Source: Prevotellaceae bacterium (GTDB lineage Bacteria > Bacteroidota > Bacteroidia > Bacteroidales > Bacteroidaceae). From it: a DNA stretch of 60,762 bases. Made by a program: the position numbers and the translations under genes. Every line of letters starts with the position of its first letter. Position 1 is the stretch's first letter. Positions 21,643-51,125 of this stretch are shown here, one piece after another. Under the pieces are notes generated by a model, which was not told where the DNA came from, did no database searches, and saw nothing but the letters and a program-made list of their open reading frames with translations. The stretch covers positions 1 through 60,762 of the forward strand of contig JAUNOM010000012.1 of assembly GCA_030531085.1 (NCBI GenBank). The letters are read 5' to 3'.

Positions 21643-22473
21643 CTACTTGTTAGTATAAACCTTCAGAATGTCCATCAGAGTGATTGCACTCTCCTCCATC
21701 TGCGCCGTCAGATGATCTATCTTTGACAGCACATAATTATAGAACAGCTGCAGCACCAGAGCGGTGATGATACCAAAGATTGTCGTTATCAGCGCCACCT
21801 TCATGCCCGAAGCCACGATGGTCGGGCTGATATCACCAGCCAGCTCTATCTGGTCAAACGACATCACCATACCTATCACCGTACCCAGAAAGCCCAATGA
21901 CGGAGCCATGGCTATAAACAGTGTGATCCATGAGCAGCCCTTCTCCATATTCCCCAACTGCACAGAGGCGTATGAGGTCACAGAACGCTCCACTATGTCA
22001 AGGCTGCTCCCGACACGCAGCAGTCCCTGATAACAGATACTCGCAACCGGTCCGCGGGTATTGCGGCACAGTTCCTTCGCCGCATCCACACCTTCAGCGT
22101 TCAGTTTAGCCTCAAGCTCGCCCATGAACCGCTTGGCGTCTATCTCTGACATACACAGATACACTATCCTCTCTATGCAGCACGCCAGACCAAGTATAAG
22201 TACTATAGCCACCAGCGACATGAAAAACACACCACCATCCATGAACTTGCTCTTCAGCTGCCCATACACTCCACCGTCAGCCAGAGCGTCCACTGCCGCA
22301 GTGTCATCCAGTTCCAGCGCGCCCTCGTCAAACATCACAGTGGAAGCCGAGTCCAATACAGCGGTAGCTGTATCAGCAGAGACCGCTGCAACATCCTGTG
22401 CCATAGCGGTAGCGCTCAGCGCCAACGCTATAACGGGCACCACTGCATAACGGAAAACATTTTTTTTCTTCAT
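21643..22473 (-). CDS. MotA/TolQ/ExbB family proton channel protein
   Basis: The 276-residue protein has a signal-like first helix (about 9-25), an Ala/Asp/Thr-rich periplasmic segment, then three membrane helices (about 77-105, 165-195, 215-245). The region around APSLGFLGTVIGMVMSFD is the ExbB/TolQ signature. It builds the pentameric stator of the TonB motor. It is the first gene of the run and is driven by the promoter at 22503-22533. Confidence 0.93.
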   Translation of the reverse strand: MKKKNVFRYAVVPVIALALSATAMAQDVAAVSADTATAVLDSASTVMFDEGALELDDTAAVDALADGGVYGQLKSKFMDGGVFFMSLVAIVLILGLACCIERIVYLCMSEIDAKRFMGELEAKLNAEGVDAAKELCRNTRGPVASICYQGLLRVGSSLDIVERSVTSYASVQLGNMEKGCSWITLFIAMAPSLGFLGTVIGMVMSFDQIELAGDISPTIVASGMKVALITTIFGIITALVLQLFYNYVLSKIDHLTAQMEESAITLMDILKVYTNK

Positions 22474-22773: not shown

Positions 22774-23223
22774 ATTTTGACAAAACGTTACTTTTCGGGC
22801 ACTTTTCGTGACGTTTTGATATTTTGAGATAATCACCTTCACTTCGCATTCTGGAGAGATTACAGCGGAAAACATCGCACTTTTTCTCGCAAAGACGGCA
22901 TTTAAGGGTGAAGGATGCCGCGTTTAAAATGCCAAAGGCCGCATTTGGCACCGCCAAAGCTATCGTTTCACCCAGTAAAAGATGCCCTTTAGCTATGCAA
23001 AAGCTATCAAATTGCAGTGTGAAAGCTATCAAATTGCGGAGCTTTCACGCAGAAATCGAGGTACAAATAATATAACTGTAAGGCCGTCAGATATTTATAA
23101 AAACGCGCGGAGAATGCGCTGTACGCGGCCGTCAGGAAATAATTTTGAAACGAGGGCATTCTCCGAAGGTTGAAAAAATCAAAGTGTCAGAAAACAAGGC
23201 GTTTTTCTGACACTTTGATTTTG
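22774..23223 (-). repeat. 450-bp structured dispersed element, copy A
   Basis: This is nearly identical to 49330-49780 in reverse complement; by hand I count about 29 differences in about 450 positions (roughly 93% identity), with the central 60 bases (22981-23040) identical. Read on the minus strand it starts with a perfect 20-bp stem (23175-23194 with 23203-23222, 8-base loop), then GGAGAATGC/GCATTCTCC, a pair of 22-bp-spaced repeats (23000-23015, 23022-23037), TGCCAAA/TTTGGCA and CAAAACGT/ACGTTTTG. Open frames exist on both strands but differences are mostly non-synonymous, so it looks non-coding. Confidence 0.9.
23175..23222 (-). terminator. 20-bp hairpin at the end of element copy A
   Basis: The arms 23175-23194 and 23203-23222 are perfectly complementary around an 8-base loop, and the 3' arm on the minus strand ends in a T run. 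It could act as a second terminator about 50 bases beyond the topB terminator. It belongs to the dispersed element. Confidence 0.6.
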
Positions 23224-23316: not shown

Positions 23317-25191
23317 TCACTCCGCATCCAGCTCCAGCTTGCGGTTGGTATTGTCTGCCAGCACTTGGTTTACAATATCCGTTATCTGCTCCTTCAACTC
23401 GTTAATGAACTGTGCCGCATCGTATTTGCGGTGCTCTATGTCACGGAGCTTCTTCTCCCATATACCTGTGAGTTCAGGACTCTTGAGCAAATCCTCCCGT
23501 ATCAGGTCCATAAGACGCATACCAGTGGCTGTGGGAACAAGGCGCTTGCGTTCACGCCGTATGTAATTGCGGCGGAACAGTGTCTCGATGATTGCGGCCC
23601 TGCTTGATGGGCGACCAATTCCGTTCTCCTTCATGGCAGCACGCAACTCGTCATTGTCCACAAACTTTCCTGCCGTCTCCATGGCCCGGAGCAGAGTTGC
23701 CTCGGTATAATATGGCGGTGGCACCGTCTTCTTCTCGGTCAGCGTAGGCTTATGCGGCCCCTGCTCCCCCTTTACAAATGTGGGCAGCAGACCCTCGGCG
23801 GCGTTATCATCACTGCTATCTGCGGCAGCTGTGTCCGGTTCCTCTGGAGTATCCTTCTTCTGTTTTGCAAATACCACACGATACCCTGGCTCAAGTATCT
23901 CCTTACCCGCGGCCTTGAACTTCACTTCGCCAGCCTTTCCCTCCACTGTCGTTGTGGAGAACTTGCAGTCTGGATAGAACACTGCAATGAAACGGCGCGC
24001 CACAAGGTCATAGACGTTACGCTCCATGTCTGTAAGTCCTGCAGGAACGACCCCTGTGGGAATGATGGCATGGTGGTCCGTGACCTTCGAGTTGTCAAAG
24101 ACCTTGGTACTCTTGCGCAACGCCTTGCCGCCTAACGGACGGATAAGCTCCGCATAAGGCGCCACGCCTGCAACCTTTATACGGAACAGTCCGTTAAGCG
24201 TCTGGGGGCACTTGGCATAGATATCGTCTGTAAGATACTGTGTGTCCACACGCGGATAGGTAGTGACCTTCTTCTCATAAAGGCTCTGAATGAGCGAGAG
24301 TGTCATCTCCGCAGTATATGAGAACTTCTTGTTGCATTCAACCTGCAGCGTCGTCAGGTCAAAAAGCTGTGGAGGTTTCTCCGTACCGTTCTTCTTTGAC
24401 ACAGATGTCACCTCAAAAGGCTTGTCCTGTATCTCTGCGAAAGCGGCCTCCCCCTCCTCACGCTTCATGAATTTGCCCTTGGTGGCCGTAAACAGCGTGT
24501 CGCGGTATATTGTAGACAGCACCCAATATGGTTCAGGCTTGAAATTGTCTATCTCCTTTTGCCTGTTAACTATTATGGCAAGCGTTGGTGTCTGTACCCT
24601 GCCAATGGACAATACGGACGAGGCACCGACCTGACGGTTGTTCTGGTTGCGGTATTTCAGGGTGTAAAGGCGCGTGGCGTTCATGCCAAGCAGCCAGTCA
24701 CCTATGGCACGCGACAGCCCTGCCATATACAGAGGGTCATAGTCTTTCTGCTCATGCAGGTTCTCAAAGCCCTCGCGTATGGCCTCTTCTGTTAATGAAG
24801 ATATCCACAAACGCTGCACAGGACAACGGGCACCAGCCTTCTGCATCACCCACCGCTGTATCAGTTCACCCTCCTGTCCGGCATCACCACAGTTGATAAT
24901 ACGGTCTGCATTCCGCATCAGCCTTTCTATTACCGCAAACTGTTTCTTTATACTGTCCTGCTCTATGAGCTTGATACCGAAACGGGGTGGAATCATCGGC
25001 AGCGAGCCAAGCCCCCAATGCTTCCACATATCTGTGTAGTCATGCGGCTCTTTCAAGGTGCACAGGTGTCCGTATGTCCATGTCACCTGGTAACCGTTAC
25101 CTTCCAAATATCCCTGATGCTGGGAGGTGGCTCCGAGGACACTGGCTATGTCACGCGCTACGCTGGGTTTCTCTGCTATGCAAACTACCAT
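23317..25191 (-). CDS. topB: DNA topoisomerase III
   Basis: This is a type IA topoisomerase of 624 residues that passes single strands to decatenate and relax DNA. The Toprim part opens with VVCIAEKPSVARDIA and contains INCGDAGQEGELIQRWV (acidic metal site). The active-site tyrosine is Tyr312 in VTTYPRVDTQYL. The C-terminal domain lacks zinc-finger cysteines. Plasmid or conjugative-element copies of TopB are common in this phylum, but this one lies in a housekeeping operon, 10 bases after the ispH-cmk fusion, and is its last gene. Confidence 0.95.
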   Translation of the reverse strand: MVVCIAEKPSVARDIASVLGATSQHQGYLEGNGYQVTWTYGHLCTLKEPHDYTDMWKHWGLGSLPMIPPRFGIKLIEQDSIKKQFAVIERLMRNADRIINCGDAGQEGELIQRWVMQKAGARCPVQRLWISSLTEEAIREGFENLHEQKDYDPLYMAGLSRAIGDWLLGMNATRLYTLKYRNQNNRQVGASSVLSIGRVQTPTLAIIVNRQKEIDNFKPEPYWVLSTIYRDTLFTATKGKFMKREEGEAAFAEIQDKPFEVTSVSKKNGTEKPPQLFDLTTLQVECNKKFSYTAEMTLSLIQSLYEKKVTTYPRVDTQYLTDDIYAKCPQTLNGLFRIKVAGVAPYAELIRPLGGKALRKSTKVFDNSKVTDHHAIIPTGVVPAGLTDMERNVYDLVARRFIAVFYPDCKFSTTTVEGKAGEVKFKAAGKEILEPGYRVVFAKQKKDTPEEPDTAAADSSDDNAAEGLLPTFVKGEQGPHKPTLTEKKTVPPPYYTEATLLRAMETAGKFVDNDELRAAMKENGIGRPSSRAAIIETLFRRNYIRRERKRLVPTATGMRLMDLIREDLLKSPELTGIWEKKLRDIEHRKYDAAQFINELKEQITDIVNQVLADNTNRKLELDAE

Positions 25192-29006: not shown

Positions 29007-32000
29007 TTATTTTATCGATACTGTATACGCGCCGTCGGTCCCACGGAACTCATTTGCGTATGCGCATTCTGCCGTCACAGTGCCAGAACGGTAGTCACCC
29101 ACTCTGTCAACATAATAATCAGCCTGCATCACGTGTGTACCTTTAGCCATTTTACAGAAATGGAAAGCCGTTGCCGCATCCTTAACCTCCTGATAATAGC
29201 CGTTACGGTAACCTGATACGGCAGCGACCGGCTCGAGACAGGCCGCCTTGTTGTCAACAACAGAGACAAAATCATAATCCCTATCTGCAATAACAGTAAT
29301 GCGAACAGTCACCCTGTCACCAACCTTCACGTTGTCACCAGTAGTCTTTACACCATTCACAAGCACCTCACGCTTCACTGACAAGCCCGTTGCCGTGGCC
29401 TTTACATCCGTTACATTCTGCTTATACGTAACATAAGCCGCAGCCCACGACTCGCAATCGCTCTGTTTGTGCAGCGTCACAGTGGCGTTCTTCGCAGTAA
29501 CATCCTTGTCGGCAAGCACCTGTTTACCTTTCTCATACTTCAAGACTGCCACATCACCACCGAAGAATGCGTGCACAGCATTAACCGTATTATATGGATT
29601 TCCCCACTCTTGCGTACGCTTGCTGCTAAGCAACCAACGCTGCATCTCGGCTATTGTGGTGCGGTCTTTAGGTGTTACCTCACGCATAGCCTCTATTGCC
29701 ATGGTCTGGGTTGGTATGCGATAATCACACCATGAGTATGCCGCGCGGTATGAGTCAAAATATCTTCCAACATCTTTTCTGTAAACAGTATGTTGCTTTA
29801 TGGACTCCACAAAAGTGCGGGCATCGCCCTTCCTGCCGTTATTCGCAAGCACAATAGCCGCCACAGCCTTCCTTGCCATGTCAGACTTCACCATGTCTTT
29901 GGCAACGTGTGACAGCAGGTAATCGGCAGAAGAGCCGCCTTTCCTACCCTCAAGAGTAAGAGAATACAGCCAGTCAAGATGCGTATGCGTAATGCTCACG
30001 CCATATTTCTTCTCCTGCTGCCTCATTCTTCTGACATCCTCGTCCATCTCTTTCTGCATGAAACGGAAGGCTTTGTCGAGCAACTGTTGCATATCCGCCT
30101 GACGACCGCACAGTCTGTTAAGCCTGGCAAGAGTCTTCACTACTGCCGATGTCATATAAACACTGCCCTCCATACCTTGCCACCACGAGAAAGAGCCGTC
30201 ACTGTTCTGCAACTGCTGCAATGCGTTGAGGATATTCTCTGACTTGTTTTCTGACCATTTCAGGCTTGCAGCAACCCTGTTCGCATACAACGCTGTCACT
30301 AATGATATTGCATTCTGACTCTTACACTCGGCTATTTCCGGCAGAGTCTCCATCATAAGCCACGCCGGATTGTCCACATAGTCCACTTTAAGATGCGCTT
30401 TACGCACTGCCTGTGGTATCATATCAGAGAATGAGAGCACCGTGTCCGTAGGATTAATGAATGTATATGCCGCCGTGGCCGTAATCATCTCCTCGTCTGA
30501 TAGCACCGTGATATACCGCTGCTCACCGTCAGTATGCTCCGCACCCTGTGCCGTAATGCGACAAATATACGCACCCTCCGGCATCTTGGCAGCATCCACG
30601 GGGAATGTCACCACACCCGTCTCGCCATTCTTTACGCTTACCTTCTTGGTGAAACCAAATATCTTCTTCTCCGTCTCCGCATCAAGAACGGTCATCGTCA
30701 CCTTTATATTCTGAACCTTGTCAGAGAGGTTTGCCACTGTAGTGGCGATTGTGGCGTTATCCCCATAACGCAGGAAACGAGGCATATTAGGCTGCACCAT
30801 CAGTTTTTTCTGCGCCACAGCATCCGCCGCAAGCGTTGCATTGCGCATAGCCTCATCATGAGCCAATGCCATGAAACGCCATGTAGTGACACTCTCGGGC
30901 AATGTAAATCTGACGGTGGCAACACCTTTTTCATCCGTCATCACGGCCGGCATGAAGAACGCTGTCTCTGCAAAATCACTGCGAAGAGGTATGCTCTCCT
31001 CCACATCAGCCTCCTGCGGAGCAGACTCTTTGACACTTAACATCTCGCCCTCATCAGCATTTCCGGCCATATCATACGTGGCAACAGCTGGCACGTTACA
31101 AGCAACCTTCACTTCTCTTAATTCTTGCTTTGCCATAGGGATGCTGCCGAGACGCATGAGCTTGCCACCACTGGTGGTATGAGCCACGTCCATCACACAG
31201 TCAAAGACTCCTCCACCATGCCAAAAACGTGTTACACCATTAGCGAAGTGTGTAAAACGCAAATTCTGATAAGGCAAATACTTATAATCACCATTAGCAA
31301 ATCCTCCAAAAGACCTTCTTATCGGCGCTGACCAACTGGTGTAAGGAAGGCTCAAATGACGCATATCCGTAAACTCCCAACGGTGCTTTGCCAGCTGATC
31401 CAGAGACTTATCGTACAGCACCGCCATCATCCTTGCCTTGGCAGGAGTACCATCCGGATTGGTGATACGCACCGCCCACTGCTCCTTCTGACCTGGAACA
31501 AGGCGGTCACGAAATGTCTCCCACTCCATGTTCAACTTATTCTCCGGCAACGGACGGCGCAGAACTATATTCTGAGAATAAAGCACTCCTTCCTTTACCC
31601 ACGCCAAAGCGATAGTCAGTCCGTCACCATACTCTTCCTTATATGATAATGTCTGCGTGACGTTCTCATTGCTGATACGCTTTGAGCCACGCTGTATCAT
31701 CCTGTCGCCAGCATATACCGTATAGAATACATGGACATCCTCGTCCGATGAACCTACCTGTACCCACACATCACCGCCATCCGCAGGAAATGACTGTGCA
31801 GACTGATAGCACCACTGATGGGTGTATTTCATGGGGCGGACATCGCTCTTTCTGAACGCCACAAAGGTATTCTTCACCGTGTCCTCACCACATATTGCCA
31901 TGAGATTATGCTCTCCCGATGGTATGCTCTGCGCCAAAGCGTATGGCTTGTTAGCCTCCGCTGCCTGCAGTTCCACACCGTCAAGAATCATTCTCACGCT

Positions 32001-34205
32001 ACCCTCTATCTCTGTTCCTGCCGCGTTCCTGCGCGAAACGGTCACCATTATGACAGAATCTGCAAGAACCTCACGCGGCATCATGCACGACAGGTATGCC
32101 TCCCTGTTACTTAATGGCAGAGACATCGTGGCACTATGGGTCTCTCCTGCATTGTCTGTGACACTCGCTGTAGCGTCAATGCTGTAAAATCTCGGAATAA
32201 ATGCCGTAGCAGACGGTGGCATAACCATTGGCATCTTGATGCAGAACGTGCCGTCAGCGGCAGTCACCACGGTGTCATTGAGCAGGTTTCCATCCTCTGT
32301 CTCATAGCTGCGCCACCACCATGACAGGTTTCTCCGCACACTGTAAGCCACCTTTGCATCGGCCACAGGCATACCACTGTAAGTGCGCGCCGTGCCCTTC
32401 ACCATAACAGTATCGCCATTGGCATATCCCATTACGGGTTTCTCCAGTGTCACGTCAAATGTCGGACGCTTGTATTCTTCAACCCTTATGCTCGCCGTTC
32501 CGTTCCCTGCATGAATGAGCCATGAACCGTTACGTCTACCGGAAGGCAGTTGGAAATCCACTGAAGCCGCACCGAAACTGTCGGTAACGACCTGTCTTTT
32601 CTCCACTTCCTTCCTCTGAGCGTCACACAGAACGACCTCCACCGTGTCTCCGCTTGCAACAATAAAGTCCTTGTCATGTGACAACTTATAGTCTGCAAGC
32701 GCAACCTTTACAGTCTGTCCCGGCCTGTATATCGCCCTGTCCGTATAGATTTTGCACCGTTTCTGCACCTCTTCCACCTTGTTATACATATAGTAGCTAA
32801 ATAGCGGTTGCGGCTGCATGGCTATGTCATCACCATTTGTAGCATATATGCTGGCGTACTCTTTCACCGATGGCATGATGAAACCTCCCGTATTATCTGT
32901 TCTCACTACCTTGTCCATCTGACCCTCTTTACGTGAAGACAGATGTACCGTCGCTCCCGGAACAGGATGTCCTGTAACGGCGTTCACCACTGCAATGTAT
33001 GCGCTGCTGTCATCGATAGGAATATAAACCGGCATCAGGTCTGACACATACAGTTCTGCATTGTCCGCCTTTGTCTTGCCTCCCATATCAGTAACAGTAA
33101 TCTTCCACTTGCCAAGAGGCAGTCGGCCAAGGCTCAAGGAGTCCTCGACCATCTCATAGTCATTGCTAATCTTTATGGCCTTCTCATAGTTGCGAATCAT
33201 GTCAAAACCCGTCTTTGCCTTTTTATTGACACGCTTTAGCGTCACTTTCACGCCCTTCACGTTGCGCACATCGAACAGTTGCAGCACCACGTCCTTATCC
33301 GTTGTCACTGTCTGACGCAGCGAACGAAAACTTATTTGTGGACAAGTCAATGAGTTGCGCCTATTCCTCAGTGCATTATTCTCCCTCCATTCCGGCCACC
33401 GACGCAACGCCTCGTCTATCCATTCAATTTGCTTCCCCGCATCTTCCCTGTACATATTTTTCATCTTCCGCACTGCCAGCACGCCACATTCAGGCAAGTC
33501 CCGATAAATGTTTATCAGCGAATCAATACGCTGCGGCGTCCTTTCCCATCTCATCCAGAGGCTGGCGGCTATGCAGGCAGCCCTTCTGTCTGTGGTTGAG
33601 GCATAATAATCATACAGAGCACGATCCTGCCCAGTATGCTTGGCGATAAGGCTTATAAGGTTATCGCCAAAATATCTGCTGTCATTCTCTTGCTCTACGA
33701 GCGGCTTATAGGCAAGTGCGCCATTCTTCTTAAGGTACTCTTGCGCATCAGGAGAAGCGAGCAGCGAGTCCACACGGGGCGCTCCGAACTCCTCGTACAT
33801 CGTAGTCCGACAGATGGTAGCCAGCACTCCGTTGGTATTCCGCCACTCCTCATACTTTGACAAGATTCTTTCCTTTACCGTCTTTACAGAATCCGGAGAT
33901 ATACGTTCTATCTTGTAACACTCCTTTATCATTGCATACAGCAGATCCCCATAGCTTTTCTGCCGTTCTGCCTTATCCTGAATGCGGCGCAATATGGCGA
34001 CAGCAGTCTTTGGATGGTCCTTCTTCTCCGCAACGACATAATCGTTCCACAGTTTCTTAAGGCTTGCATTGTCACCGTAAGCCGCTGTTCCTCCAACTGT
34101 AAGCATTAGCGCCAGCAGCCCGCCTCTCGCAGCCTTGGCGGCGAAAGGAGAGCCACTGTTCCACATTTCCATTATTCTTGATAACAGGACTGTTACTTTA
34201 TCCAT
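29007..34205 (-). CDS. alpha-2-macroglobulin family protein with altered thioester motif
   Basis: This giant exported protein has 1732 residues. A hydrophobic signal (about 28-43, GLLALMLTVGGTAAYG) follows an unusually long N-terminal stretch, so a later start such as Met12 or Met14 is possible. The first 300 residues are helical; then come macroglobulin domains (YTDRAIYRPGQTVKVALADYKL is the MG hallmark), a bait-like region near 1000, FAETAFFMPAVMTDEKGVATVRFTLPES (A2M domain) and the alpha-helical toroid around 1290-1560. The thioester motif CxEQ is replaced by CKSQ (Cys1294, Gln1297): the two bond-forming residues remain but the glutamate is lost. Bacterial A2M proteins are thought to trap proteases. 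It lies 15 bases after mrp in the same operon. Confidence 0.85.
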   Translation of the reverse strand: MDKVTVLLSRIMEMWNSGSPFAAKAARGGLLALMLTVGGTAAYGDNASLKKLWNDYVVAEKKDHPKTAVAILRRIQDKAERQKSYGDLLYAMIKECYKIERISPDSVKTVKERILSKYEEWRNTNGVLATICRTTMYEEFGAPRVDSLLASPDAQEYLKKNGALAYKPLVEQENDSRYFGDNLISLIAKHTGQDRALYDYYASTTDRRAACIAASLWMRWERTPQRIDSLINIYRDLPECGVLAVRKMKNMYREDAGKQIEWIDEALRRWPEWRENNALRNRRNSLTCPQISFRSLRQTVTTDKDVVLQLFDVRNVKGVKVTLKRVNKKAKTGFDMIRNYEKAIKISNDYEMVEDSLSLGRLPLGKWKITVTDMGGKTKADNAELYVSDLMPVYIPIDDSSAYIAVVNAVTGHPVPGATVHLSSRKEGQMDKVVRTDNTGGFIMPSVKEYASIYATNGDDIAMQPQPLFSYYMYNKVEEVQKRCKIYTDRAIYRPGQTVKVALADYKLSHDKDFIVASGDTVEVVLCDAQRKEVEKRQVVTDSFGAASVDFQLPSGRRNGSWLIHAGNGTASIRVEEYKRPTFDVTLEKPVMGYANGDTVMVKGTARTYSGMPVADAKVAYSVRRNLSWWWRSYETEDGNLLNDTVVTAADGTFCIKMPMVMPPSATAFIPRFYSIDATASVTDNAGETHSATMSLPLSNREAYLSCMMPREVLADSVIMVTVSRRNAAGTEIEGSVRMILDGVELQAAEANKPYALAQSIPSGEHNLMAICGEDTVKNTFVAFRKSDVRPMKYTHQWCYQSAQSFPADGGDVWVQVGSSDEDVHVFYTVYAGDRMIQRGSKRISNENVTQTLSYKEEYGDGLTIALAWVKEGVLYSQNIVLRRPLPENKLNMEWETFRDRLVPGQKEQWAVRITNPDGTPAKARMMAVLYDKSLDQLAKHRWEFTDMRHLSLPYTSWSAPIRRSFGGFANGDYKYLPYQNLRFTHFANGVTRFWHGGGVFDCVMDVAHTTSGGKLMRLGSIPMAKQELREVKVACNVPAVATYDMAGNADEGEMLSVKESAPQEADVEESIPLRSDFAETAFFMPAVMTDEKGVATVRFTLPESVTTWRFMALAHDEAMRNATLAADAVAQKKLMVQPNMPRFLRYGDNATIATTVANLSDKVQNIKVTMTVLDAETEKKIFGFTKKVSVKNGETGVVTFPVDAAKMPEGAYICRITAQGAEHTDGEQRYITVLSDEEMITATAAYTFINPTDTVLSFSDMIPQAVRKAHLKVDYVDNPAWLMMETLPEIAECKSQNAISLVTALYANRVAASLKWSENKSENILNALQQLQNSDGSFSWWQGMEGSVYMTSAVVKTLARLNRLCGRQADMQQLLDKAFRFMQKEMDEDVRRMRQQEKKYGVSITHTHLDWLYSLTLEGRKGGSSADYLLSHVAKDMVKSDMARKAVAAIVLANNGRKGDARTFVESIKQHTVYRKDVGRYFDSYRAAYSWCDYRIPTQTMAIEAMREVTPKDRTTIAEMQRWLLSSKRTQEWGNPYNTVNAVHAFFGGDVAVLKYEKGKQVLADKDVTAKNATVTLHKQSDCESWAAAYVTYKQNVTDVKATATGLSVKREVLVNGVKTTGDNVKVGDRVTVRITVIADRDYDFVSVVDNKAACLEPVAAVSGYRNGYYQEVKDAATAFHFCKMAKGTHVMQADYYVDRVGDYRSGTVTAECAYANEFRGTDGAYTVSIK

Positions 34206-48504: not shown

Positions 48505-49305
48505 ATGAACATAAACATCGGAGACAAAGTCCGTTTCCTCAATGACATCGGCGGAGGAAAGGTGTCAGGATTTCAAAAGAACGGCATAGTACTCGTGGAG
48601 GACGAGGACGGTTTCGAGATACCCATGCAGGCATCAGAGGTGGTGGTTGTAGAGAATACAGACAATCAGAACAGGCCCGTCAGGAAAGCAGAGCCTGCGC
48701 GCCCCGTCATACAGGAGAAGCCACGGAAGGAGAAGCCTGTGGAGCCTACGGAAGAGGACCTGCGCATAGCGGAGCTTAGAGAATACTATGACAACAAGAG
48801 AAAAGACAAGGAAGCGGAGAAAGTGGCAAAGCCACAGCCGACAACAGCACAGCAGCCGGCCAATGACAATGAGGAAACACTGGAGGCACGCATCATAAGG
48901 CTGGAAATGACGGTACGAAAGCTGCAGATGAGACTGGAACGCCTGGAGGATGCCAAGGCCCTGCGCGAGAAGATAAAGGCCAATGACCTGCAGAAGCGCA
49001 ATGACAGCACACGCCAGCACAACGAGCCGATGGAGGTGGACCTGCACGCTCACGAGCTGCTTGAGACCACCGCAGGCATGGAGGCCAAGGATATAAAGGA
49101 GTACCAGCTTAAAACTGTACGCGACACCATTAACAGCCATATCAGGAATAAGGGACAGAGGATAGTCTTCATACACGGCAATGGTAACGGAATACTGCGC
49201 AAGGCCATCACAGATATGCTGCGCCATGAATACCCGTCATGCCAATATCAGGACGCTTCGTTCCAACAGTACGGCTTTGGCGCGACAATGGTAACCATAC
49301 ACTAA
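48505..49305 (+). CDS. DUF2027/Smr domain protein
   Basis: The 266-residue protein combines an N-terminal DUF2027-like part (IGDKVRFLNDIGGGKVSGFQ, about 5-24, a small beta-barrel like that of MutS2), a charged, helical middle segment (about 55-180, coiled-coil-like KLQMRLERLEDAK) and a C-terminal Smr domain (VDLHAHELLE ... IVFIHGNGNGILRKAI). Smr domains are nucleases or RNA-binding modules. DNA- or RNA-related function is inferred. It ends 24 bases before the dispersed element copy B. Confidence 0.87.
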   Translation: MNINIGDKVRFLNDIGGGKVSGFQKNGIVLVEDEDGFEIPMQASEVVVVENTDNQNRPVRKAEPARPVIQEKPRKEKPVEPTEEDLRIAELREYYDNKRKDKEAEKVAKPQPTTAQQPANDNEETLEARIIRLEMTVRKLQMRLERLEDAKALREKIKANDLQKRNDSTRQHNEPMEVDLHAHELLETTAGMEAKDIKEYQLKTVRDTINSHIRNKGQRIVFIHGNGNGILRKAITDMLRHEYPSCQYQDASFQQYGFGATMVTIH

Positions 49306-49329: not shown

Positions 49330-49780
49330 CAAAAATCAGAGTGTCAGAAAAACGCCTTGTTTTCTGACACTTTGATTTTTACAACCCTCGGAGAATGCCC
49401 TCGTTTCAAAATTATTTCCTGATGGCCGCGTACAGCGCATTCTCCGCGCGTTTTTATAAACACCTGACGGTCTTGTAGTTATATTATTTGCACCTCGATT
49501 TCTGCTTGGAAGCTCCGCAATTTGATAGCTTTCACACTGCAATTTGATAGCTTTTGCATAGCTAAAGGGCATCTTTTTATTGGTGAAACGATAGCTTTAG
49601 CAGTGCCAAATGCAGCCTTTGGCATTTTAAACGCGGCATTCTTCACCCTTAAATGCCATCTTTGCGATAAAAATTGCGATGTTTTTCGCTGTAATCTCTC
49701 CAGAATGCGAAGTGAAGGTGATTATCTCAAAATAACAAAACGTCACGAAAAAGGGCCAAAAAGTAACGTTTTGTCAAAAT
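49330..49780 (+). repeat. 450-bp structured dispersed element, copy B
   Basis: This is the inverted partner of 22774-23223. It begins with a 20-bp hairpin (49332-49379), then GGAGAATGC (49390-49398)/GCATTCTCC (49437-49445), the 22-bp-spaced direct repeats GCAATTTGATAGCTTT (49517-49532 and 49539-49554), TGCCAAA/TTTGGCA, and at the far end CAAAACGT (49736-49743)/ACGTTTTG (49766-49773). It fills almost the whole gap between the convergent Smr and xseA genes, ending 14 bases from the xseA stop. Confidence 0.9.
49332..49379 (+). terminator. 20-bp hairpin downstream of the Smr gene
   Basis: The arms 49332-49351 and 49360-49379 pair with one G.U in place of the A-U of copy A, around an 8-base loop, and the 3' arm runs into a T tract. 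It lies 26 bases after the Smr stop codon and probably terminates the dxs-Smr transcript. It is the first structure of element copy B. Confidence 0.75.
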
Positions 49781-49793
49781 CGGCCTTTTCCAC

Positions 49794-51125
49794 TCACGCC
49801 GGACTGCCATCTGAATTTGCAGGCATTTTCCTTGTCACCTTCACCTCCACACACCCTGATGCCAGTATCAGAGACAGCCTGTCACCCAACTGCAACATAT
49901 CGCCGTCCGTCACCGCCACCCCATCATGCAGAGCGACGGAATAGCCGCGACGCAGTATGTTCACAGGGTCAACGGCCTGCGAGCGCTGCTCCACCATATC
50001 CAGACGATGGCGCTCACGCTCCACTCGTGCTGTCACAAGCCATGGCAGGCGCTGCAGGACGTGCTCAAGTCTGTTACGCTCCGTCAGCAGACGGTTAGCA
50101 ATAACATACCGCATACGCTCCGCGCACTGCGCCAGACGATTCTCCTCCCTTGTCCGGCGCAGGGTCACAACAGCGGAAATCATCTGCTCCAAACGCTGCA
50201 GGCGCATCTGTTCATGCCGCATACACTGCACGACAGAGTCTGTTATGCGTTCCGCACAGTCGTCAATCCGCTCCAATGTTCCTGCAAGATGCGAGATAAG
50301 GAAGGCGGCCACGGCCGTAGGAGTCTTCTGACTGACACAGGCTATGACATCAAGCACGGACTTGTCACGCTCATGCCCTATGCCAGTAATGACAGGAAGG
50401 GGGAAGTTTGCCACATTCTCCGCAAGCGCCAGAGTGTCAAAACCCGAAAGGTCTGCCGTGCTGCCGCCACCTCTTATTATAACCACCACATCGAAGTTGT
50501 CCGCCTTGGCGTTCACGGCCTCCAAGGCATTGATTACACTCTGCTGCACCTTCTCGCCCTGCATGACAGCAGGAAACAGCTGTGTACGGAACTTGAAGCC
50601 ATACTCATTATCTGCCAGCTGATTGCAGAAATCGCCATATCCTGCCGCCGTGGCACTTGAGATTACGGCCACCCGTGTTGCGAATTGTGGAACATGAAGC
50701 GTCTTGTTCATGTCTATTACACCCTGGGCACGCAGGGTGTCCAGTATCTCCTGACGGCGACGCGCCATGTCGCCCATAGTATATGACGCGTCTATGTCAT
50801 TGACAATCCACGAGAAACCGTATGCCTCATGGAATGTGGCATGGAGAAGTAACAGCACCTTCATGCCCTGACACAGCGGCTGTCCGGTATGGTGCATGAA
50901 ACGGGGAGCAAGACGTGACCACGTGCCACGCCAGCAACAAGCACGCGCCTGGGCAACAGGAGTATTGCCGAGAGCGCTCTTCTCCACAAGTTCCATATAG
51001 CAGTGACCGCGGTTCTCATGCACGCTCGCCAGCTCGGCCGTGACCCAATAGTCCTGGGCCATGGAGAGTTCTATGACATCGCGTACAAGGCTGTTAGCCT
51101 GAGAGAGTGTTATTGTTGAGGCCAT
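49794..51125 (-). CDS. xseA: exodeoxyribonuclease VII large subunit
   Basis: The 443-residue protein carries an N-terminal OB fold (ITLSQANSLVRDVIE, VTAELASVHENRGHCYMELVEK), the catalytic domain (VAVISSATAAGYGDFCNQL, VVVIIRGGGSTADLSGFD, GIGHERDKSVLDVIA) and a long helical region (about 280-400). The C terminus (VNILRRGYSVAL ... LSLILASGCVEVKV) is typical. It degrades single-stranded DNA with XseB. xseB does not follow it here; element copy B takes that place. Confidence 0.95.
   Translation of the reverse strand: MASTITLSQANSLVRDVIELSMAQDYWVTAELASVHENRGHCYMELVEKSALGNTPVAQARACCWRGTWSRLAPRFMHHTGQPLCQGMKVLLLLHATFHEAYGFSWIVNDIDASYTMGDMARRRQEILDTLRAQGVIDMNKTLHVPQFATRVAVISSATAAGYGDFCNQLADNEYGFKFRTQLFPAVMQGEKVQQSVINALEAVNAKADNFDVVVIIRGGGSTADLSGFDTLALAENVANFPLPVITGIGHERDKSVLDVIACVSQKTPTAVAAFLISHLAGTLERIDDCAERITDSVVQCMRHEQMRLQRLEQMISAVVTLRRTREENRLAQCAERMRYVIANRLLTERNRLEHVLQRLPWLVTARVERERHRLDMVEQRSQAVDPVNILRRGYSVALHDGVAVTDGDMLQLGDRLSLILASGCVEVKVTRKMPANSDGSPA

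Follow-up and report, generated by a model that had tools for sequence, protein, structure and literature searches.

A 450-bp, apparently non-coding element occurs twice in the window (the whole 60,762-nucleotide stretch of a Prevotellaceae bacterium contig analyzed here), and a preliminary description of this DNA left it undecided between a non-autonomous mobile element and a family of structured RNAs. Which of the two is it? Alignment confirmed the pair, which lies in opposite orientations (Table 1): there are 30 differences over 451 alignment columns, one of them a gap, and the longest identical run is 68 bases, close to the roughly 29 differences and 60-base identical core counted earlier. 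The four stem-loops then proposed can be written, by eye, in both copies. The longest among the window ORFs listed is a 1732-aa open frame at 29007-34205 on the minus strand.

Table 1. Coordinates in the window of both element copies, their parts and their neighboring genes.
Feature	Position	Strand	Remarks
Element copy 1	22774..23223	+	MotA/TolQ/ExbB-family gene on start side, DNA topoisomerase gene on stop side
MotA/TolQ/ExbB-family gene	ORF 21643-22473	-	Adjoins start side of copy 1
DNA topoisomerase gene	ORF 23317-25191	-	Adjoins stop side of copy 1
Arm-to-arm span, copy 1	22781-23217		
5' terminal site, copy 1	22781..22818	+	11-bp half-site, 16-bp spacer, inverted 11-bp half-site
Conserved leader, copy 1	22840..22859	+	CACTTCGCATTCTGGAGAGA; by eye; like the leader in UBA3627, also by eye
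Brick array, copy 1	22929..23048	+	Units of about 22 bp, some inverted; limits approximate, by eye
Conserved core, copy 1	23109..23164	+	GCTGTACG (23118-23125), AATAATTTT, arms GGAGAATGC/GCATTCTCC of the preliminary description
3' terminal site, copy 1	23180..23217	+	Inward T-run on minus strand; outward ATTTT at 23218-23222
Element copy 2	49330..49780	-	Occupies whole gap between two convergent genes
Smr-domain gene	Stop at 49305		Convergent neighbor of copy 2
Exonuclease VII large-subunit gene	Stop at 49794		Convergent neighbor of copy 2
Arm-to-arm span, copy 2	49337-49773		
5' terminal site, copy 2	49736..49773	-	
3' terminal site, copy 2	49337..49374	-	One half-site difference, CACTCTG

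The pair is a small part of a large set. In the genome to which the window belongs (G000, a draft of 2,374,037 bases in 61 contigs, 81% complete), a BLAST search with the 450 bases returned 104 pieces, so that the pair cannot be a chance match; these were grouped into 40 loci, and a 41st copy (L160) was added by an end-site search. The whole-genome search that the preliminary description had proposed thus gives about 41 copies rather than two: the original observation is right, but far too small. Full-length matches at 92% identity or more comprise three copies, including the query, the third being on contig C5 (92%). In most of the others, the matching parts are a 5' piece (about 86 bases) and a 3' piece (about 115 bases), and the middle varies. 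The end-site search, which allowed up to two mismatches, found 75 sites, against none for a backward control; among the sites listed, two fall outside the known loci, namely the element L160 and a solo 38-bp site, L159 (G000:C21:82231-82268), which lies in a divergent intergenic region and has a left half of the 3' type and a right half of the 5' type.

We oriented 39 of the 40 loci, leaving out one (L042) that is cut by a contig end, and three more (L013, L045 and L046) were removed by hand for low 5' boundary scores to give the 36 copies on which most counts rest; by eye, L045 and L046 do show a 5' site and L013 does not. Median pairwise identity among these 36 copies is 0.60, and only 3 of 630 pairs reach 0.9. 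Their lengths range from 373 to 580 bp, the longest open frame per copy, read stop to stop, is 38–143 aa, and no long conserved ORF was found among these frames. The element is, as expected of a MITE, short, non-coding and dispersed mostly between genes; in a crude survey of flanking ORFs, some ORFs of at least 120 aa overlap the estimated element.

The copies share a modular anatomy, typically consisting of a 38-bp end site, a leader, a variable segment, bricks of 22 bp in an array, a core of the form GCTGTACG...AATAATTTT, and a second 38-bp end site, with the T-run of the end site facing inward. Each end site is made up of two inverted 11-bp half-sites separated by a 16-bp spacer. When spacers of 8–27 were searched, 16 was best in 39 of 39 3' sites and in 35 of 37 5' sites, the exceptions being L041 (21) and L046 (20), and this search found no 5' site for L013 and L014. 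Both ends were registered in at least 36 of 39 copies, in a count that imposed the 16-base spacer. The half-sites are of several types, and the two 5' arms are often unlike (n = 36: 14 TAC/CAC, 11 CAC/CAC, 5 CAC/AAG, 3 AAG/AAG and 3 others); the 3' ends of L044–L046 have a different sequence, and so, by eye, do their 5' ends. As each end is a palindromic 38-bp site, one end repeats the other in both inverted and direct orientation. The absence of terminal inverted repeats, noted at first, is therefore only partly right, as a palindromic site stands at each end.

The arm-to-arm lengths of the 36 copies fall into two main classes about one brick apart (20 copies at 414–418 and 11 at 436–440; the others are listed as 373, 427, 518, 580 and 580). 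Consistent with a brick of this size, self-match in these copies peaks at lag 22 (0.434; mean over lags 8–39, 0.262), and the second-best lag is 11 (0.354).

Both end sites have features of terminators that face inward. An inward T-run follows the 5' site in 33 of 36 copies (at least five T in seven); the 3' site is followed by one, read on the minus strand, in 35 of 36 (at least four T in seven). These counts have unequal thresholds and no shuffle control. Outward T-runs are fewer, occurring in 22 of 36 copies on the 3' side and in 5 of 36 on the 5' side. At least one terminator-like hairpin is present in 33 of 36 copies in the forward direction and in all 36 in the reverse direction, compared with 24% and 17% of dinucleotide shuffles, and such inward terminators would insulate the element.

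No target site duplication, a further feature of MITEs, was evident in the flanks of either species for which they were compared. In the 36 copies of G000, matching flanks are not above permuted pairings (k 3–8), which bears out the earlier statement for this genome, and in a relative, UBA3627, there are at most 3 in 39, with 0.97 expected (k 4–6). Flank composition in G000 (AAA/GCCC on the left, GGG/TTT on the right) suggested insertion into the loops of rho-independent terminators, which we rejected because, across 35 copies, a copy's own left and right flanks complement each other no better than permuted pairs do (488 of 2000 permutations reach the mean). In L014 and L007, the left and right flanks are mutually complementary, as if within a palindrome.

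The search of other Prevotella genomes, likewise proposed in the preliminary description, did yield matches, though in few genomes. BLAST with the 450 bases matched 4 of 40 relatives, the own genome included, and a sequence-only model built on the 3' module had matches in 13 of the 200 genomes searched within the genus (E ≤0.001, own genome again included) under strict filters that miss diverged forms; as 20 candidates were scored per genome, copy counts from this model are lower bounds. One relative (G001) has many copies with the same order of parts and different core and end sequences. In three of its loci (L050, L067 and L072, at about position 1501), brick arrays lack element ends by eye within about 450 bases, some arrays lie directly behind a gene end, and bricks seem to occur alone; in three others (L047, L048 and L049), the inner part of the core is seemingly inverted relative to other copies, with the flanking arms kept. 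L078 and L090, in genome G172, show at about position 1501 an apparent relative that is much shorter, about 110 bases, and has a CAAAGTGTCAGCAAAAACGCG dyad, upstream of which no bricks were seen.

Scanning GTDB r220 for the core pattern gave 16 matches, all within Prevotellaceae; Prevotellaceae bacterium UBA3627 accounts for 14 of them, and RGIG1502 (from goat abomasum) and RGIG10298 (from yak rumen) have one each. Nothing matched in plasmid and phage collections, and the single IMG/VR pattern match, which lies in an apparent phage gene, was taken as chance. UBA3627 contains 97 matches of the end motif RATAGGACAWWWT, against 2 for the control, and its elements end in direct repeats (AATAGGACA) in place of dyads. 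We examined 39 of these elements, chosen as pairs of repeats 345–358 or 381–382 bases apart. They keep the leader and the core (by eye) and, in 12 copies, bricks of period 22 (lag-22 self-match 0.516 versus 0.257). Their median pairwise identity is 0.65, with 11 of 741 pairs at 0.9 or above. There are thus about 41 copies in 2.4 Mb (G000) and at least 39 in 2.1 Mb (UBA3627).

No long terminal hairpin was seen by eye in the UBA3627 elements. Behind the leader, a hairpin is terminator-like, with a score of at least 12, in 18 of the 39 and absent from 4, the mean best score being 13.4 versus 0.5 in mononucleotide shuffles; in about half of the copies (L164–L202) these hairpins stand at the same place, with a sequence that differs from copy to copy. 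The left flank ends in TACATAG in 14 of the 39 and a common right extension is present in 11, with both in 2. Truncated copies (L147, L149 and L152) and a solo repeat (L150) also occur. At a contig end (L154, G216:C59), a left extension, one direct repeat and a right extension follow one another as in an empty or excised site, with only 9 bases to the left of the repeat. RGIG10298 was considered as a close relative in which to seek empty sites and rejected, its two longest aligned gene stretches being 69% alike. It has three end-motif matches, two of them of AATAGGACATTTT, where the control gives two in all; given so few end motifs and the 69% match, its UBA3627-like contig may be mis-binned, which is our guess.

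Do related genomes carry the element at the same positions? The topoisomerase gene beside copy 1 has orthologues in three relatives (G008, G001 and G114) that are 80–82% identical, and the 900 bases behind the gene lack the element in all three. When the flanking ORFs of 40 G000 loci were compared by tblastn at 45% identity or more, they matched at 1 of 30 G001 loci (some overlapping) and at 2 of 15 other loci (14 from UBA3627 and one from RGIG10298), both in UBA3627. By our own arithmetic, this is about what the sampled 3–5% of these genomes would give. Two of the three (L044/L070 and L008/L145) have one and the same gene beside the element in both species, so that some positions could be shared. 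As the sampled positions are largely not common between species, we infer from this comparison of species that most were gained or lost since the species parted.

An autonomous element with the same ends, which would be expected for a MITE, was not found: no gene-bearing pair of ends appeared in the draft genomes among the sites listed. In G000, no two of the listed end sites are 0.6–5 kb apart; in UBA3627, the two lone end sites at 2.2 and 4.6 kb from a complete element are the truncated copies L152 and L147; and nine further genomes, where the pattern caught 0–7 sites per genome, yielded no such pair. A Y1 transposase partner (PF01797), as for an element derived from REPIN/RAYT or IS200/IS605, was not found in the own genome, with no match in this 81% complete draft and a positive control in 5 of 14 genomes.

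On balance, with confidence a little better than even, we consider the element a non-autonomous mobile DNA repeat of Prevotellaceae. The computed basis consists of diverged copies with a fixed anatomy, ends that differ between species, sampled positions that are largely not shared, terminator-like hairpins with inward T-runs at both ends and the lack of a long conserved ORF. A recombinase or transposase encoded elsewhere would bind the two 38-bp terminal dyads (in UBA3627, an enzyme in the same role would act on the terminal direct repeats) and, acting in trans, would copy the unit, or move it, to intergenic sites, leaving no target duplication. Its inward terminators would keep out transcription from neighboring genes and may end the neighbors' transcripts, while the bricks, two helical turns apart, may form an array for a DNA-binding protein, whole units being gained or lost.

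Against mobility, the copies look old, their divergence being beyond what a recent burst would leave, yet they are whole, as would be expected from selection on each copy no less than from mobility. The most surprising finding of this analysis is that so diverged a set has kept its ends, which leaves room for a host function. The main rival holds that selection by the host maintains the element, each copy serving both as an array bound by a nucleoid or regulatory protein and as a two-way transcription insulator between genes. In agreement with this, copies that are about 60% alike nevertheless keep both end sites in at least 36 of 39 cases, two genomes hold some 40 copies each (about 41 in G000, at least 39 in UBA3627), the 22- and 11-bp periodicity suits the helical phasing of DNA, inward T-runs are found in nearly all copies, and two genes adjoin an element in two species. 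However, a host function sits poorly with sampled positions that are largely unshared, with ends that differ between species, and with the small number of genomes matched within the genus (13 of 200), though the strict filters there miss diverged forms, and we regard it as unlikely. We see a rather smaller chance for a more specific version, in which some 40 host-maintained sites per chromosome, with phased protein-binding bricks and two inward terminators, organize or insulate the chromosome and are moved and renewed by a recombinase, ends being swapped between species and the core kept.

A cassette that site-specific recombination moves by way of its terminal sites, in the manner of an integrated circle flanked by attL and attR, would explain why the half-sites within a single 5' end vary separately (5 CAC/AAG and 14 TAC/CAC among 36), as well as the direct repeats at UBA3627 ends, the joining of a 3'-type to a 5'-type half-site in the solo dyad L159, and the solo repeats of UBA3627 (L150, and L154 at a contig end). 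Every insertion would then need a pre-existing site, whereas a single solo site is present among the G000 sites listed and L154 has just 9 bases left of its repeat, and we think this quite improbable.

The reading as RNA depends on the helices. The preliminary description had proposed looking for compensatory changes, and had named two copies in one genome with no covariation as the outcome that would speak against it; since the 3' dyad covaries, that outcome did not occur. In the 3' dyad, 94.4% of cells are paired, with 16 cells of two-sided change versus 3.1 in shuffles and a covariation score of 0.137 versus 0.044; none of 500 shuffles attained four of the five measures and 1 of 500 attained the fifth, although related sequences can exceed shuffles without any structure. 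Conversely, the inner stem of the preliminary description (GGAGAATGC/GCATTCTCC) pairs no better than shuffles (82.7% versus 83.0%). Pairing inside the 16-base spacer of the 3' dyad is 0.062 versus 0.030 in shuffles (2 of 500 reach it), slid versions being equally high. Of the helices that can be written out, among them the 5' dyad, TGCCAAA/TTTGGCA and a TAAC/GTTA stem, these counts cover the 3' dyad, its spacer and the inner stem. For 39 copies of the 3' module, RNAalifold returned the terminal dyad and no other conserved pairing, so that neither this prediction nor the inner stem provided the covarying internal helices expected of a structured RNA. A two-fold protein site would be expected to covary as well, a reading favored by the constant spacer and the unlike arms. 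Homology to an Rfam family was rejected, as no family reached its gathering threshold in the window and the ten weak matches were all under the family cut-offs.

A family of structured small RNAs, transcribed from within the element and ended by the 3' hairpin, could draw on the covarying 3' dyad, the pairing in its spacer (no higher than in slid versions), an outward T-run beside the 3' site in 22 of 36 copies and a putative Bacteroidetes-type promoter in the leader. Against it stand the lack of any other predicted conserved pairing in the 3' module, the failure to see a 3' hairpin in UBA3627, the 14 of 36 copies with no outward T-run, the lack of an Rfam family at gathering threshold in the window, and the fact that a palindromic protein site would covary too; it is the reading to which we give the least credence. 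Of the two original readings, the mobile one is thus supported, by a high copy number at positions largely not common to relatives, and the RNA one is weakened, by the dyad-only RNAalifold result, an inner stem no better paired than shuffles, often unlike 5' arms and UBA3627 ends at which no long hairpin was seen by eye. Overall, what we see resembles a DNA element more than a set of folded RNAs.

If the element is indeed a mobile DNA repeat, a branch of Prevotellaceae, two of whose named carriers come from ruminants, would hold a large, unnamed class of modular repeats that are easily mistaken for regulatory RNA. Terminators and protein-binding arrays would have been placed between dozens of genes, affecting the boundaries of transcription. 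Furthermore, ends that change between species while the core stays offer a route to the enzyme that moves the element, and copies that are highly diverged and yet whole raise the question of whether dispersed repeats of bacteria are parasites or have been put to use.

How does the element compare with known systems? REP/REPIN sequences with their RAYT transposases, and the palindrome-ended IS200/IS605 elements, have palindromic ends, lie between genes and make no target duplication. The element resembles them in all three respects; it differs in that G000 has no Y1 transposase domain and in its two often unlike half-sites with a constant 16-bp spacer. A closer likeness, in architecture, is to BrickBuilt, whose host, Porphyromonas gingivalis, belongs to the same order as the Prevotella host. 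Among the best matches in the open-licence literature we found no paper on the present repeat, which is weak evidence.

According to passages of its description, BrickBuilt is an intergenic MITE without an Rfam match that consists of a leader, tandem 23-nt bricks and a tail; one strain has 19 copies, of which 4 have both ends intact, and the ends are IS5-like (GAGACCTTTGCA and variants) (PMC4596501). Together with BOX, it is closest to the element in architecture. The differences from what those passages report are that BrickBuilt bricks are 23-nt direct repeats, whereas those of the Prevotellaceae element have a period of 22 and run in both directions; that its ends are IS5-like, in contrast to 38-bp dyads or direct repeats; and that both ends are intact in 4 of 19 copies, compared with at least 36 of 39. 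None of three patterns for such IS5-like terminal repeats (GAGACCTTTGCA) occurs in 36 G000 and 12 UBA3627 elements (0 of 48).

BOX of Streptococcus pneumoniae, as portrayed in passages of PMC3049150, is a composite boxA-(boxB)n-boxC element with variable central modules and many dispersed copies, judged non-autonomous and mobile, whose ends are reported to be similar to an insertion sequence. By that description, the Prevotellaceae element is likewise composite, variable in module number and dispersed; it differs in belonging to another phylum and in that no insertion-sequence partner was found for it. Since its size is that of a MITE, no target duplication was found, the BrickBuilt ends are absent and no autonomous partner appeared in the draft genomes, we call the element a member of neither family. 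Without BrickBuilt's ends, it nonetheless has a BOX- and BrickBuilt-like architecture.
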